48,065 nt of DNA, taken from Sulfurimonas sp. (GTDB lineage Bacteria; Campylobacterota; Campylobacteria; Campylobacterales; Sulfurimonadaceae). Location of the stretch: assembly GCA_027448805.1 (NCBI GenBank), contig DAIDMU010000080.1, positions 1 to 48,065 of the forward strand, written 5' to 3'. Shown here piece by piece: positions 21,875 to 48,065 of the stretch. The notes beneath the pieces were generated by a model. That model was given only the letters and a program-made list of their open reading frames with translations, was not told the origin of the DNA and searched no databases. The position numbers and the translations under genes are program-made. Positions within the stretch are counted from its first letter, which is position 1. Every line of letters begins with the position of its first letter.

Positions 21875-22849
21875 TTAGAAATCTAAAGCTTCAACTTCAG
21901 AGTAAGCTTTCATTAGATGTTTGCCCATTTGACCCTCATAAGCGTCCCATGAGTGGTAATCTTTCAGCTCTTCATGAACTATCGGTTTCATGTCATAGCT
22001 CTCTATGCCTTCTGCATAACCTTTTTTAGCGGCTGCAACGATGATTTTCATATAGTTTAAGAAAGGATCGATAAGTTTGTTTGCATCTGTGTTTGAAGGT
22101 CCATGCCCAGGAACATAGAGTTTATATTTTTTTAAACCGTCTTCTTGATTTTTAATCTTCTCCAAGAGGGCAATGTTTTCAATTATACTAGATGATTCAT
22201 CAAACGCCCCAAAACGATTTGTTATAAGGTTATCCCCTATAAAAAGCGTGCTAGAGTTGACATGTTCAATCAATATATCAGTATCTGTGTGACCTTTTGT
22301 AAAGTGGCGCATTACAAAAGTCTCTCCGTCAACAACAACTGTTTGCTTGTTTTCTACGCCTTTCGTTGGAAATGCGAAAGGTTTTGTTCCTTTTAGATTA
22401 CCTGTTAATCTGTCAAGAATACCGTACCAAGTCTCAGCCGCATTATCTTTTACCTGCTCTATCATATATGTAAGAGCGTAAATTGGCACATTAGGATATT
22501 TTTCTTGAATATTTTTATTTGCAAACCAGTGGTCGCCGTGTTTGTGCGTATTGAAAATAGCAATTATCGGTTTTTTACTTACTTTTTCAATCTCAGCAAC
22601 TATCTTCTTGCCTACATTGTAGTTTCCGCCCGGATCGACTATGATAAGCCCATTTTTGCTCTCAATAATCGCCGGATTGTTCATAAAACCTTCGTTCTCT
22701 TTGCTCGGTTCTAGTTCCGGTCCATGCATAACGTAAACATTGCTGTTTACTTTTTCAAATTTAAAATCACCTAATTTTCCGAGTGTGAACGCATTTAGTG
22801 ATAGTGAAAATATAATAGCAACCGAAGTCAAGAGGGTAATTTTTTTCAT
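21875..22849 (-). CDS. Secreted metallo-beta-lactamase-fold hydrolase, SoxH-like
   Basis: A signal peptide (residues 1-20) sends it to the periplasm. The metal-binding motif THKHGDHWFA is at 101-110, with GHTDTD near 190, GDN and PGHGPS after it. The family contains SoxH-like and quinoprotein-relay-type hydrolases; the physiological substrate is unknown, thioester or sulfur-related compounds being possible. It follows the sqr gene on the same strand with a 95-base gap that contains a hairpin, so it is probably part of the same unit and may share the periplasm with the exported SQR. Confidence 0.87.
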   Translation of the reverse strand: MKKITLLTSVAIIFSLSLNAFTLGKLGDFKFEKVNSNVYVMHGPELEPSKENEGFMNNPAIIESKNGLIIVDPGGNYNVGKKIVAEIEKVSKKPIIAIFNTHKHGDHWFANKNIQEKYPNVPIYALTYMIEQVKDNAAETWYGILDRLTGNLKGTKPFAFPTKGVENKQTVVVDGETFVMRHFTKGHTDTDILIEHVNSSTLFIGDNLITNRFGAFDESSSIIENIALLEKIKNQEDGLKKYKLYVPGHGPSNTDANKLIDPFLNYMKIIVAAAKKGYAEGIESYDMKPIVHEELKDYHSWDAYEGQMGKHLMKAYSEVEALDF

Positions 22850-22912
22850 CTGTTCTCCTATTTTTTTGTGAGTGTTTAAAAGTTTGTGAGGGGCAGTTGT
22901 ATTGATATATAG

Positions 22913-22935
22913 CTAATCCCCCAAAGGAGGATTAG
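22913..22935 (-). terminator. Hairpin between sqr and the hydrolase gene
   Basis: CTAATCCCCC pairs with GGAGGATTAG (one mismatch) around AAA, ten bases after the sqr stop. No U-tract follows on the minus strand, so it may attenuate or protect the upstream message. Confidence 0.45.
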
Positions 22936-22944
22936 AAAGTTTGA

Positions 22945-24426
22945 TTATGCTCTACCAGAAAGCATACCGTACATTGTCATTGGCTTAAGAAGATAAACTT
23001 TTAACAACCACATCAACCATCTCTCTTTAGTCGGGTCTAGAGGGAATGAAGGAGTTGGTTTTTTAGTCCAGTTAAACTCTGCCATCATAACAGTACCGAT
23101 ACCTGTAATAAGTGGACAAACAGTGTATCCATCATATTTAGCTACCGGCTCTTTGCCGCCCATAACAGAGATGACGTTCTCAACAATAACTTTGTACTGC
23201 TTACGAGCTGAACCGCCAGTTTTACCCATTGGAACGCCTGCATTATCACCAACCGCCCAAACATTTGGATAGAAGCTGCTTTGTAGAGTCTCTTTGTTAA
23301 CAGTAATCCATCCGCCAGCAGCAGATCCGATTTTTGAAGTACCGACAGCATCAGGTGCTTTCATCGGAGGAGCGATATGCATAAAGTCATACTTGAATTG
23401 AACAGGCTCTCCAACTTTTACTTCTTTAGTGATTTTTTCACCCATCTCATCTTCAGCTTCTTGTTTCTCCATTTTCCACTTGTCAAATGTTGCTGTTTTA
23501 GTTGCTGCGTCCACTTCTACAAGATTGTGTTTAAAGTTCCATTTAAAGCCTCTTGCTTCAAATTGCTTAACAACTGCATCATTGTATTCAGGAATTCCAA
23601 ATAGTACTCCGCCGTCAGTATTGAAAGTAAGTTCCACTTTATCACGAACACCAGCCTCAACAAGACGAGCATGAGTCAAGTACATAATTTTCATAGGAGC
23701 GCCACCACATTTAAGAGGCGTGTTTGGATGAGTGAAAATTGCTTGCAGTTTCTCTGCACCTGTATGAGATTTAGCTTTAGCAATCAGCTCTTGAATTCCT
23801 TCCCATGTTGCTTTTGCACCATCTTGGAAATAAAGAGAGTGAAGACCATTTTTAGTGATAGTCTGCTTAGTAGCGGCATTATCTGCACCAGCCGACGTTA
23901 TCTCGCCTTCGATACCTTTAATAGCTTTGTAGTTAAGGTTTGCACCGGCAGCAACAATCAGTTGATCATAAGTTACCTCTTCTTTGCCATCAACAATAAC
24001 TTTATTGTTGTCCGGATCAACTGAAGTAACACTGCCTTTGATTAGCTTAACACCGCTTGGAACAAAATCATCTCTTTTGTAAACGATATCGTCTAGTTTC
24101 CAAATACCGCCTGCAACCAATGTTTGACCTGGTTGGTAAGAAACAGATATAGGATCCGGCTCAATTACAGTAATGTCTGCATTTGAGATAGAGTTATTAA
24201 GGCGTGCTGCCGTACTCATACCAGCCAAACCGCCGCCGATGATAACGATTTTGCCTTTTACATCAGAAGATGCAACCGCAGTTGAAGTACCAACAGAGGC
24301 ACTCGCTATTACAGATGCCGCCAATGGAGACATTGTTAAGTATTTTAAAGCCTCACGGCGAGACATAATCTCAGGATGTTTGTCTACTTCGTTTAAAATC
24401 TCTTCTAAGATCTTATTCTTTTTCAT
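22945..24426 (-). CDS. sqr: Sulfide:quinone oxidoreductase, type II, with Tat signal
   Basis: FAD enzyme that oxidises sulfide and feeds electrons to quinone. RR at residues 23-24 in SRREALKYL and the alanine-rich stretch after it are a twin-arginine export signal, so the enzyme should face the periplasm. The dinucleotide fold GGGLAGM is at 64-70. The only two cysteines are C240 (TPLKCGGAP) and C437 (YDGYTVCPLITG), which align with the redox disulfide cysteines of human SQOR. The C-terminal FPLDPTKERW and WLLKVYLL segments are also SQOR-like. Length 493. A TTGATAACTTTATCA inverted repeat lies upstream. Sulfurimonas denitrificans has several SQRs; this appears to be the type II one. Confidence 0.93.
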   Translation of the reverse strand: MKKNKILEEILNEVDKHPEIMSRREALKYLTMSPLAASVIASASVGTSTAVASSDVKGKIVIIGGGLAGMSTAARLNNSISNADITVIEPDPISVSYQPGQTLVAGGIWKLDDIVYKRDDFVPSGVKLIKGSVTSVDPDNNKVIVDGKEEVTYDQLIVAAGANLNYKAIKGIEGEITSAGADNAATKQTITKNGLHSLYFQDGAKATWEGIQELIAKAKSHTGAEKLQAIFTHPNTPLKCGGAPMKIMYLTHARLVEAGVRDKVELTFNTDGGVLFGIPEYNDAVVKQFEARGFKWNFKHNLVEVDAATKTATFDKWKMEKQEAEDEMGEKITKEVKVGEPVQFKYDFMHIAPPMKAPDAVGTSKIGSAAGGWITVNKETLQSSFYPNVWAVGDNAGVPMGKTGGSARKQYKVIVENVISVMGGKEPVAKYDGYTVCPLITGIGTVMMAEFNWTKKPTPSFPLDPTKERWLMWLLKVYLLKPMTMYGMLSGRA

Positions 24427-24456: not shown

Positions 24457-24558
24457 ATTTTACATCTTTGAGGCTTAAGATAGTTTTAAACATTACCGTT
24501 TTTATAAGTTTAATGCTATTTTAGGTGTTTATGTATCAGTTTGTGAAGGAAATTTTAT

Positions 24559-45119: not shown

Positions 45120-45808
45120 AAGTCAGTTCCGAGTTTTCCAAGCGCGCTTTGGAGTATGAGAGTTACAATATTATACAAAATATGGTTATAGAAAAACTTC
45201 TTGAGCATGTAAAGCAAAAACCGAAAAATATTTTAGACATCGGGTGCGGAAGCGGTGCCCTTTGCAGAGCGATAAATTGGGAGTATGAGCACTTTTACGG
45301 CGTTGATTTTGCGCCCGGTATGCTGGAGTTGCATCCAAAATCTTCAAAGATAGAGACTATCTATGGAGACTTTAATGATGATAAGCTATTTGAAAATATG
45401 CTTACATATATATATGATTTTATTTTTTCGGCATCTGCTCTGCAGTGGGCGGACGATTTAGACAGAGTATTTAGAAAAATCAAAGAACTAAACGCTCCAG
45501 TAGCTTTGGCCATTTTTACATCAAACACTTTTAAAACTATAAACCAAACAGCATCAATAAATTCTATTTTGAAAAGTGCCGATGAGGTTAATGAGCTTCA
45601 AAAGAAGTATTTTAATGCGGAGTTCGAGGTATTGAACTATAAACTTGAGTTTGAATCAACAAGAGATATGTTTAAGTACATAAAGAGAAGCGGTGTGAGC
45701 GGGTCAAGAAAAATATTAAACTACAAAGAGAGCAAAAAGCTATTAAATGAGTACCCTTTAAACTATCTGGAGTTTGAGGTCGCTTTTATCTATAGCTCTG
45801 CCATATAA
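45116..45808 (+). CDS. bioC: BioC-like SAM-dependent methyltransferase
   Basis: Class I methyltransferase resembling malonyl-ACP O-methyltransferase, which starts the pimeloyl route to biotin. The N-terminal FSKRALEYESYNIIQ helix and ILDIGCGSGALCRA (SAM-binding motif) are BioC-like, as is FSASALQWADDL. Its ATG overlaps the znuB stop, giving 230 residues (track start 45071 is inside znuB). Linking biotin to the zinc operon is unusual. The end overlaps the convergent MOSC gene by 19 bases. Confidence 0.82.
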   Translation: MKVSSEFSKRALEYESYNIIQNMVIEKLLEHVKQKPKNILDIGCGSGALCRAINWEYEHFYGVDFAPGMLELHPKSSKIETIYGDFNDDKLFENMLTYIYDFIFSASALQWADDLDRVFRKIKELNAPVALAIFTSNTFKTINQTASINSILKSADEVNELQKKYFNAEFEVLNYKLEFESTRDMFKYIKRSGVSGSRKILNYKESKKLLNEYPLNYLEFEVAFIYSSAI

Positions 45809-46236
45809 ACCTTATCACCGTTTTTTATCTCACCATCGCTTATTACTTTGGCAAAAATCCCTCTGTCGTTTTTTAGAAGCGTAGGTATCTTTACATCTAT
45901 CACGGCAAGATGGTTGCAGATTGTGCAGTGTTGAGAAATTTCCAGAGTGGCGCTGCCGATTTTTAACTTTGTTCCAACCTCTAGGGCATAAGGGTTGTAG
46001 TCAAGCAGAATATTTTCGCCAAGGTAGCCAAAGGGCATCTCAAGGCCGTAATTTTTAATTAAATTGTAGCTCTCAATGGAGGCAATAAGAACTGATCTTT
46101 GGATATTTTTGTTATAAAATTTATCTTCAACCACGCCAAGTTCGTCCAAAGCAACAGCATCTCTCTCAACTCTCTCTGAAACTCCGGATTTGGAGATGAA
46201 AAGTTTTAAAACCTGTCCGACCATCTTGCTTGACAT
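45790..46236 (-). CDS. MOSC-domain protein
   Basis: Small MOSC-fold protein, a family that binds molybdenum-cofactor-related sulfur groups. Motifs: GVVEDKFYNKN, IASIESYNLIK, FGYLGENILLDY and the conserved C in ISQHCTICNHLA. I choose ATG 46236 (148 residues; SSKMVGQVLKLFISKSG) over the track's 46338, because AAGG lies just upstream. It is near the molybdenum enzyme SoxC, but on the other strand. Confidence 0.87.
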   Translation of the reverse strand: MSSKMVGQVLKLFISKSGVSERVERDAVALDELGVVEDKFYNKNIQRSVLIASIESYNLIKNYGLEMPFGYLGENILLDYNPYALEVGTKLKIGSATLEISQHCTICNHLAVIDVKIPTLLKNDRGIFAKVISDGEIKNGDKVYMAEL

Positions 46237-46393
46237 AAAGGCGCCTTGTTTTATTTTTGTGTGAAATATTAGCATATTTTTTGTTACATCAAAAATAGTC
46301 GCTGCATGTACAATAATAAATTTATAAATAAAGAACATAAGTGTGCATTATTATAAAAATGTGAGAAAATTATTACATTTTTGATATTATTGC

Positions 46394-46521: not shown

Positions 46522-47862
46522 ATGAGTAAAATTTCTGAAAACAATTTAGAAACTACTACAAATATAGAGCAGTCAAGTAGAAGAGATTTCTTTAAAAAAA
46601 CTGCTGTTTATTCAGTGAGCGCAATAGCAGCTGCTAATATTTTAGCACCGGCTAAGTTACTAGCTGACGATGAGAACATAATTCACCATACGGAGTGGGG
46701 AACAACTCTTGGTGATGAGCTTAATAAATATCCATATGGTATACCATCTGCATATGAGCATAATGTTGTAAGAAGAACTTCAAGTCTTCTTTCTTCTGCG
46801 GGGGATATGCACGCTGCGGTTTCAATGACTCCGTTGCATGAGCTAGAAGGTATAATCACTCCAAACGGATTACACTTTGTAAGAACGCACAACGGTGTTG
46901 CTCACATAGATCCTAATAAGTTTAGACTTATGATTCACGGTCTTGTTGATAAACCAATCGTTCTAACTCTTGATCAGTTGAAAAAGTATCCGGCTGAGAG
47001 CAGAATTCTATTTATGGAGTGCCCTGCAAACGGTGCTGCTGAGTGGAAAGGCCCTCAATTCAACTCTTTACAATTCGTAAAAGGTATGATGAGCAATGCT
47101 GAGTGGACAGGTGTTCGTCTAAAAACTATCCTTGATGAAATCGGCTTAAAGCCGACTGCAAAATGGATGTTGGCAGAGGGTTCTGATGGTTCAGAGATGA
47201 GCAGAACGATTCCTGTTGAAAAAGTACTAGATGATGCAATGATAGTTTGGGCTCAAAACGGTGAAGCAATTAGACCGGAGCAGGGTTATCCTGTTCGTTT
47301 AATGTTACCGGGCTGGGAAGCCAACCTATGTGTTAAGTGGTTGAAGCGTTTAGAGTTCGGTGCAGAGCCTTGGTACTGTAAAGAAGAGACATCTAAGTAT
47401 ACTGTTCTTACTAAAGACGGCAGAGCGATTCAGCACTTCTATCCATTAGAAGTTAACTCAATTATTACAAATCCTTGTCCTGAAAAACCATGGAATGACC
47501 TTAAAAAAGGTGATTTAGTGGAGGTTGAAGGTATAGCTTGGAGCGGACATGGCACTATTACTGCCGTAGATATATCATTTGATGGCGGAGATAACTATGT
47601 TAAGGCAAGTCTTAAAGGTTTAGTTCTTCCTAAATCATGGACAAGATTCTCTTACATGTACAAATATGAAGGTAAGCCTTTATTAATCCAATCTCGTGCA
47701 ATTGATGACGCTGGATTCGTTCAACCGTCAGTGACGCAAGAAAAAGAGATTATCGGTGTTGAGGGTGTTTATCATAGAAACTCAATTTGTACTTGGGAAG
47801 TAAGACAAGATGGTTCAGTTCACAATGTTCAAGTTAGAACAGACAACTGTCCAAGTTCATAG
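46522..47862 (+). CDS. soxC: Sulfur oxidation molybdopterin subunit SoxC
   Basis: Molybdenum subunit of SoxCD sulfane dehydrogenase, which oxidises the sulfane sulfur bound to SoxY. A Tat signal (SSRRDFFKKTAVYSVSA, RR at 20-21) and an alanine-rich stretch direct export. The molybdenum-ligating cysteine C167 is in FMECPANGAAEW; the dimerisation-type C-terminal domain starts about residue 310. Length 446 fits. A strong AAGGAGGT ribosome binding site precedes the ATG. SoxD follows 13 bases downstream. Confidence 0.95.
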   Translation: MSKISENNLETTTNIEQSSRRDFFKKTAVYSVSAIAAANILAPAKLLADDENIIHHTEWGTTLGDELNKYPYGIPSAYEHNVVRRTSSLLSSAGDMHAAVSMTPLHELEGIITPNGLHFVRTHNGVAHIDPNKFRLMIHGLVDKPIVLTLDQLKKYPAESRILFMECPANGAAEWKGPQFNSLQFVKGMMSNAEWTGVRLKTILDEIGLKPTAKWMLAEGSDGSEMSRTIPVEKVLDDAMIVWAQNGEAIRPEQGYPVRLMLPGWEANLCVKWLKRLEFGAEPWYCKEETSKYTVLTKDGRAIQHFYPLEVNSIITNPCPEKPWNDLKKGDLVEVEGIAWSGHGTITAVDISFDGGDNYVKASLKGLVLPKSWTRFSYMYKYEGKPLLIQSRAIDDAGFVQPSVTQEKEIIGVEGVYHRNSICTWEVRQDGSVHNVQVRTDNCPSS

Positions 47863-47875
47863 GGAGATTTAGGTA

Positions 47876-48065
47876 ATGATTAAATTAAATAATAAATTAA
47901 TTGTTTTAGGGGCTTCGATTATTGCAAGTTCGTTTTTAGCTACAAGTGCTTTTGCTGCTACTGCAACTAAAGTTGATCCTGCTGCTGCAGGTGTTTATAA
48001 CCCAACTAAAAATGCTTTGGATGGCGGTGTTACTTATAAAAGAGCGAATGGCTCATATACTGCAT
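47876..48065 (+). CDS. soxD: SoxD cytochrome c subunit (5' part, cut by window end)
   Basis: Only 63 codons are visible. They show a Sec signal peptide (LIVLGASIIASSFLATSAFA, cleavage after residue 27) and a mature start ATATKVDPAAAGVYNPTKNALDGG. No heme motif is reached before the window end. Identity rests on its position directly behind soxC with AGGGAG ahead of the ATG, so it is likely the SoxC electron-transfer partner. Confidence 0.75.
   Translation, partial: MIKLNNKLIVLGASIIASSFLATSAFAATATKVDPAAAGVYNPTKNALDGGVTYKRANGSYTA

Follow-up and report, generated by a model that had tools for sequence, protein, structure and literature searches.

The window analysed here, a stretch of 48,065 nucleotides from a Sulfurimonas draft genome, carries a type II sulfide:quinone oxidoreductase gene (sqr) and, 95 bases downstream on the same strand, the gene of an MBL-fold hydrolase (hereafter MBL), together with a conserved motif upstream of sqr, a stem-loop between the two genes, and the start of a sox cluster towards the contig end:

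21875-22849, (-) strand: gene of an MBL-fold hydrolase, SoxH-related, candidate for Sec export (324 aa; assigned by Lactamase_B match, metal ligands and fold model)
22913-22935, (-) strand: stem-loop after sqr, 10 nt past its stop codon (z -4.45; no U-tract in the window)
22945-24426, (-) strand: type II sqr gene, candidate for Tat export (493 aa; assigned by SQOR match, cysteine pair and SRREALK motif)
24457-24490, (-) strand: conserved promoter motif upstream of sqr, TTTAAA-N5-CTTAAG plus TGTAAAAT (HP1043/CosR-like box, extended -10)
45790-46338, (-) strand: gene of a MOSC-domain protein beside soxC, whose relatives in other genera adjoin MBL orthologs within sox clusters
46522-47862, (+) strand: soxC, start of a soxCDYZH cluster, ~22 kb from sqr (TIGR04555 604.6 bits, cut-off 420)
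47876-48065, (+) strand: soxD, cut by the contig end, the rest lying on contig C98 with soxY, soxZ and soxH

The products of sqr and MBL

Inspection of the SQR sequence reveals exactly two cysteines, C240 and C437, which align with the human SQOR cysteines in PDB 6mo6 and 6oi5 (C201 and C379 in the human numbering), while the third cysteine of type I enzymes is absent. Human SQOR is the closest solved structure (phmmer E=6.6e-77, alignment over the whole domain), compared with E=2e-20 for FCSD (FccB) and E=6e-13 for the type I SQR of Aquifex, and the best match in named records is a Sulfurimonas MAG (95% SQR identity). Both cysteines are kept in 66 of 67 aligned homologs. A reading of the protein as FccB of flavocytochrome c sulfide dehydrogenase (FccAB) was rejected, SQOR being far closer and no cytochrome gene being adjacent. 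These comparisons support membership of the type II family, for which sulfide oxidation with quinone reduction is predicted.

The N-terminal region of the SQR contains MSRREALKYL, after which come a hydrophobic stretch and AVASS. SRREALKYL matches the Tat motif S-R-R-x-x-L-K, with the arginine pair present in 67 of 67 aligned homologs and the lysine in 66, and these conserved residues support predicted Tat export. Tat motifs on Sulfurimonas type II SQRs have already been published by Han and Perner 2015 (PMC4584964). An earlier note on this DNA had reported the gene positions with their 95-base gap, a human-SQOR-like cysteine pair at C240 and C437, and a twin-arginine signal; the ORF listing of the window, the alignment of these sole cysteines with SQOR structures and the invariance of the arginines bear out all three.

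The MBL product has the N-terminus MKKITLLTSVAIIFSLSLNAF, by inspection a Sec-type signal, and matches Pfam Lactamase_B (E=1.9e-19). Its metal-site set is complete, comprising HKHGDH at 102-107 (H102, H104, D106 and H107) with H187, D206 and H249, and in the alignment these residues are conserved among orthologs and are common to SoxH as well. For the AlphaFold2 model (pLDDT 76.7), Foldseek returns an MBL fold (probability 1.00), with 8d2z first, followed by alkylsulfatases, chlorothalonil dehalogenase and B1/B2 lactamases. Sequence and model together place the protein among predicted MBL-fold metallo-hydrolases; the fold by itself does not reveal the substrate. Persulfide dioxygenases (ETHE1/PDO) were found neither among the sequence matches at E<0.001 nor among the best 50 Foldseek hits of the model. 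Assignment to the quinoprotein relay (PQQ) metallohydrolases was rejected on scores of 130 bits for TIGR04558 (cut-off 300) and 125 bits for TIGR04559 (cut-off 280). Identity with the SoxH of soxCDYZH was likewise rejected, given 25% identity within the genome, a separate clade, and the genome's own SoxH on contig C98. The earlier description of a "SoxH-like" hydrolase thus holds loosely, in that the two are related and have an MBL fold, and fails in that MBL belongs to a distinct clade in a genome with a separate SoxH in soxCDYZH.

Conservation and putative control of the sqr locus

In a family sample of 151 genomes, MBL, counted at an identity of at least 60%, was found in 19 Sulfurimonas genomes, all of which have it at the sqr locus. 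Its distance to sqr is no more than 0.8 kb in 18 of them and 6.7 kb in the exception (G073), where it stands behind a psrABC-like operon. The locus is flanked by pyrG-recJ on one side and by a conserved gene, then rho and folE, on the other. Its variable content comprises a DUF3373 porin-like gene upstream of sqr and, downstream, a 107-aa three-cysteine protein, then MBL, a lipoprotein, or a cytochrome and a psrABC-like operon. In the tree the MBLs form one clade apart from SoxH. Two MBL allele types within Sulfurimonas conflict with the SQR tree (in G137 the SQR groups with that of the window and the MBL with that of G064), which suggests in-place exchange of MBL. MBL is present in 25 of 120 Sulfurimonas genomes; since most of the genus lacks it and soxCDYZ is described as general in Sulfurimonas (PMC7952632), MBL is accessory.

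Other occupants of the locus were also recorded. At five loci (L085, L093, L096, L098 and L111) sqr is followed at ~26 bases, in place of MBL, by genes of a cytochrome c lipoprotein and a cytochrome b561-like protein and by a psrABC/phsA-like molybdoenzyme operon. The exported 107-aa protein adjoins type II SQR at L007:7717-8040, L009:7635-7958, L120, L123 and ~25 more loci, occurs in two SQR clades, and has three invariant cysteines, one of them C-terminal (DSGNVPSC); it belongs to no Pfam or NCBIfam family, its PDB matches do not go below E=0.12 and its model is of low confidence. Such a protein is possibly a sulfur carrier; the window genome encodes no more than a 33% homolog, elsewhere (C33). 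One MBL ortholog (G131:C18:5676-6647) contains an internal TGA and is either a pseudogene or an assembly error.

Most Sulfurimonas loci share a conserved block of sequence upstream of sqr. When 10 genomes were searched with the 34-base pattern TTTAAAANNNNCTTAAGNNNNAANNNTGTARAAT, allowing up to 2 mismatches, nine gave one match each and G111 gave two, while the reversed pattern, used as a control, gave no match in the 10 genomes. The matches lie upstream of sqr in all searched genomes but G087, where an opposite-strand gene is inserted between sqr and MBL and the only match lies 83 bases upstream of MBL (C3:26350-26383); the second match in G111 is upstream of the DUF3373 porin-like gene beside sqr. 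TTTAAA-5-CTTAAG fits the HP1043 consensus TTTAAG-5-TTTAAG, with CTTAAA occurring in hp1227 (PMC8345958). An HP1043/CosR ortholog is encoded in the genome (2hqr, E 4.3e-86), and we infer that it may bind the motif at 24457-24490.

The stem sequences after sqr differ yet all pair in 12 loci, mostly without a U-tract in relatives (pairing was judged per sequence; the MAFFT alignment slips in some rows), and the stem-loop is absent where the cytochrome-psrABC operon follows sqr at ~26 bases. A pattern scan of the sqr-MBL gap found no intrinsic terminator; TATAAT-like strings, candidates for a separate promoter of MBL, occur there in several relatives and are weak in the window. Because a stem-loop is conserved at this point, co-transcription across the gap cannot be assumed. 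The structure could act by trimming, stabilising or attenuating the transcript, and the level of MBL could therefore be below that of SQR.

Association with sox genes

Contig C98 carries the remainder of soxD, soxY, soxZ, soxH and a thioredoxin-like gene, and when placed on G101, a relative in which the cluster reads soxC-D-Y-Z-H-trx, the end of the window contig (C80) and the start of C98 are separated by 23 bases. Where a relative has both loci on a single contig, 20-27 kb lie between soxC of the soxCDYZH cluster and sqr. In other Sulfurimonas (L116, L118 and L119) another type II sqr, of 54-58% identity, immediately precedes soxCDY, separated from soxC-soxD by nothing but small genes; G099 likewise has an additional type II SQR gene just ahead of soxCD. 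Outside Sulfurimonas, the MBL ortholog lies in a soxCDYZ(H) cluster at 9 of 20 homologous loci (L114, L115, L179, L180, L181, L187, L188, L190 and L192; 52-59% identity, one 40%), placed at the end of a soxC-D-Y-Z-H-trx-MOSC cluster in other genera and families and directly after soxYZ in one. The remaining 11 loci, which include L133-L135 (37-39% identity) and some at contig ends, show no sox gene nearby. Thus three pairwise associations, of MBL with sqr, of sqr with sox and of MBL with sox, meet. Exported proteins that by eye look like DUF302 adjoin MBL orthologs outside Sulfurimonas at L114, L184 and L189.

SoxB was not detected in the draft window genome (87.9% complete) or in its close relative G101 (99%), and SoxB-independent sulfate release would therefore be needed there. 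A role of MBL as SoxB replacement was rejected: among 120 genomes, SoxB occurs in 7 of 25 with MBL and 39 of 95 without it, and the anticorrelation is not significant (Fisher p=0.26). In Black Sea Sulfurimonas, soxCDYZH is co-expressed with sqr, and SoxH was proposed as a stand-in for SoxB (PMC9122950); a SoxH-type hydrolase has been proposed for SoxY2-bound sulfonate (PMC10045233).

A proposed periplasmic route from sulfide to sulfate

A functional link between SQR and MBL, as the earlier note had supposed, is well supported by the conserved neighbourhood, the common promoter motif and the occurrence of MBL orthologs in sox clusters, and conserved motifs support the export that it had assumed for both proteins. 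We propose, with about even confidence, that sulfide is converted to sulfate in the periplasm, with SQR producing sulfane sulfur, SoxYZ and SoxCD oxidising it and MBL hydrolysing an intermediate. SQR would fold with FAD in the cytoplasm, be exported by Tat and attach to the periplasmic side of the inner membrane, converting sulfide to sulfane sulfur (polysulfide) with reduction of quinone; SoxYZ would then take up the sulfane sulfur, SoxCD would oxidise it, and hydrolases would release sulfate. MBL would be one of these releasing hydrolases, alongside SoxH, acting most probably on SoxY-linked S-sulfonate or polysulfane-sulfonate; the sox context makes SoxYZ-bound intermediates its likely substrate pool, and the note's suggestion that the pair could make and process a polysulfide or persulfide intermediate is a hypothesis. 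A more specific version is tentative and rather doubtful as a whole, namely that the SoxCD-YZ route has in MBL a second hydrolase which releases sulfate independently of SoxB and acts specifically on polysulfane chains loaded by SQR on SoxYZ, and that a single co-regulated pathway, without SoxXA, SoxB or O2, unites sqr, MBL and soxCDYZH.

The genes could also be chance neighbours in an insertion hotspot between pyrG-recJ and rho, with MBL unrelated in function. Such an arrangement would fit the presence at this site, in other genomes, of the DUF3373 porin, the three-cysteine protein, a lipoprotein or the psrABC-like operon, as well as the swapping of two MBL allele types in conflict with the SQR tree and the stem-loop between the genes, but it is unlikely in view of the 19/19 linkage in Sulfurimonas combined with independent Sox linkage in other families, the rare promoter motif common to sqr and MBL (G087), and the plausibility of several alternative occupants as sulfur genes. 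It is quite improbable that MBL instead acts directly on the SQR product, as the periplasmic counterpart of SQR plus persulfide dioxygenase, and hydrolyses or oxidises a low-molecular persulfide or polysulfide without SoxYZ. Although the SQR-then-MBL order resembles the sqr-pdo gene pairs that occur in heterotrophs, and type II SQR is present in all MBL-positive Sulfurimonas of the sample, the lack of any persulfide dioxygenase among the sequence and Foldseek matches described above speaks against direct action, as does the association of MBL orthologs in other genera with soxYZ rather than sqr. Glutathione persulfide is also not expected in the periplasm, which makes such a substrate unlikely.

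We regard as distinctly unlikely a role of SQR in sulfide detoxification or metal tolerance rather than energy, with MBL clearing reactive sulfur species from periplasmic thiols. Han and Perner 2015 (PMC4584964) note that type II SQR binds sulfide with low affinity and put forward metal tolerance as its role, and SQRs of types IV and VI are general in the genus (PMC7952632); the adjacent or nearby sox genes, however, point to lithotrophy.

The proposed route through SoxYZ bears on organisms that, with their relatives, account for a large share of sulfide oxidation at anoxic redoxclines and vents. For sulfate release where soxB is absent or barely expressed, the Black Sea work proposed SoxH; the locus adds another candidate hydrolase and ties a putatively periplasmic SQR genetically to SoxCDYZ. 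What is new is the genomic context, i.e., MBL at sqr, MBL in sox clusters and sqr upstream of soxCD, Tat on type II SQRs being already known.

The window SQR shares with type II enzymes (human SQOR; Pseudomonas and yeast HMT2-like) a two-cysteine active site without the third cysteine, and differs from the human SQOR type as a candidate for Tat export, and in that glutathione and coenzyme A, the acceptors used by SQOR, do not occur in the periplasm. Family and export motif are common to it and the Sulfurimonas type II SQRs with TAT motif of Han and Perner 2015 (PMC4584964), whose SQR passages draw no connection to an adjacent hydrolase, whereas the window SQR adjoins one. As in sqr-pdo pairs (persulfide dioxygenase, ETHE1 type), a type II SQR lies beside an MBL-fold enzyme, but both proteins of the window carry predicted export signals and no PDO similarity was found. 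Finally, MBL resembles the SoxH of Campylobacterota soxCDYZH as a putatively exported MBL-fold protein with common metal-site residues, often in the same cluster, and differs from it in its low identity (25%) and separate clade, the two co-occurring in one genome.
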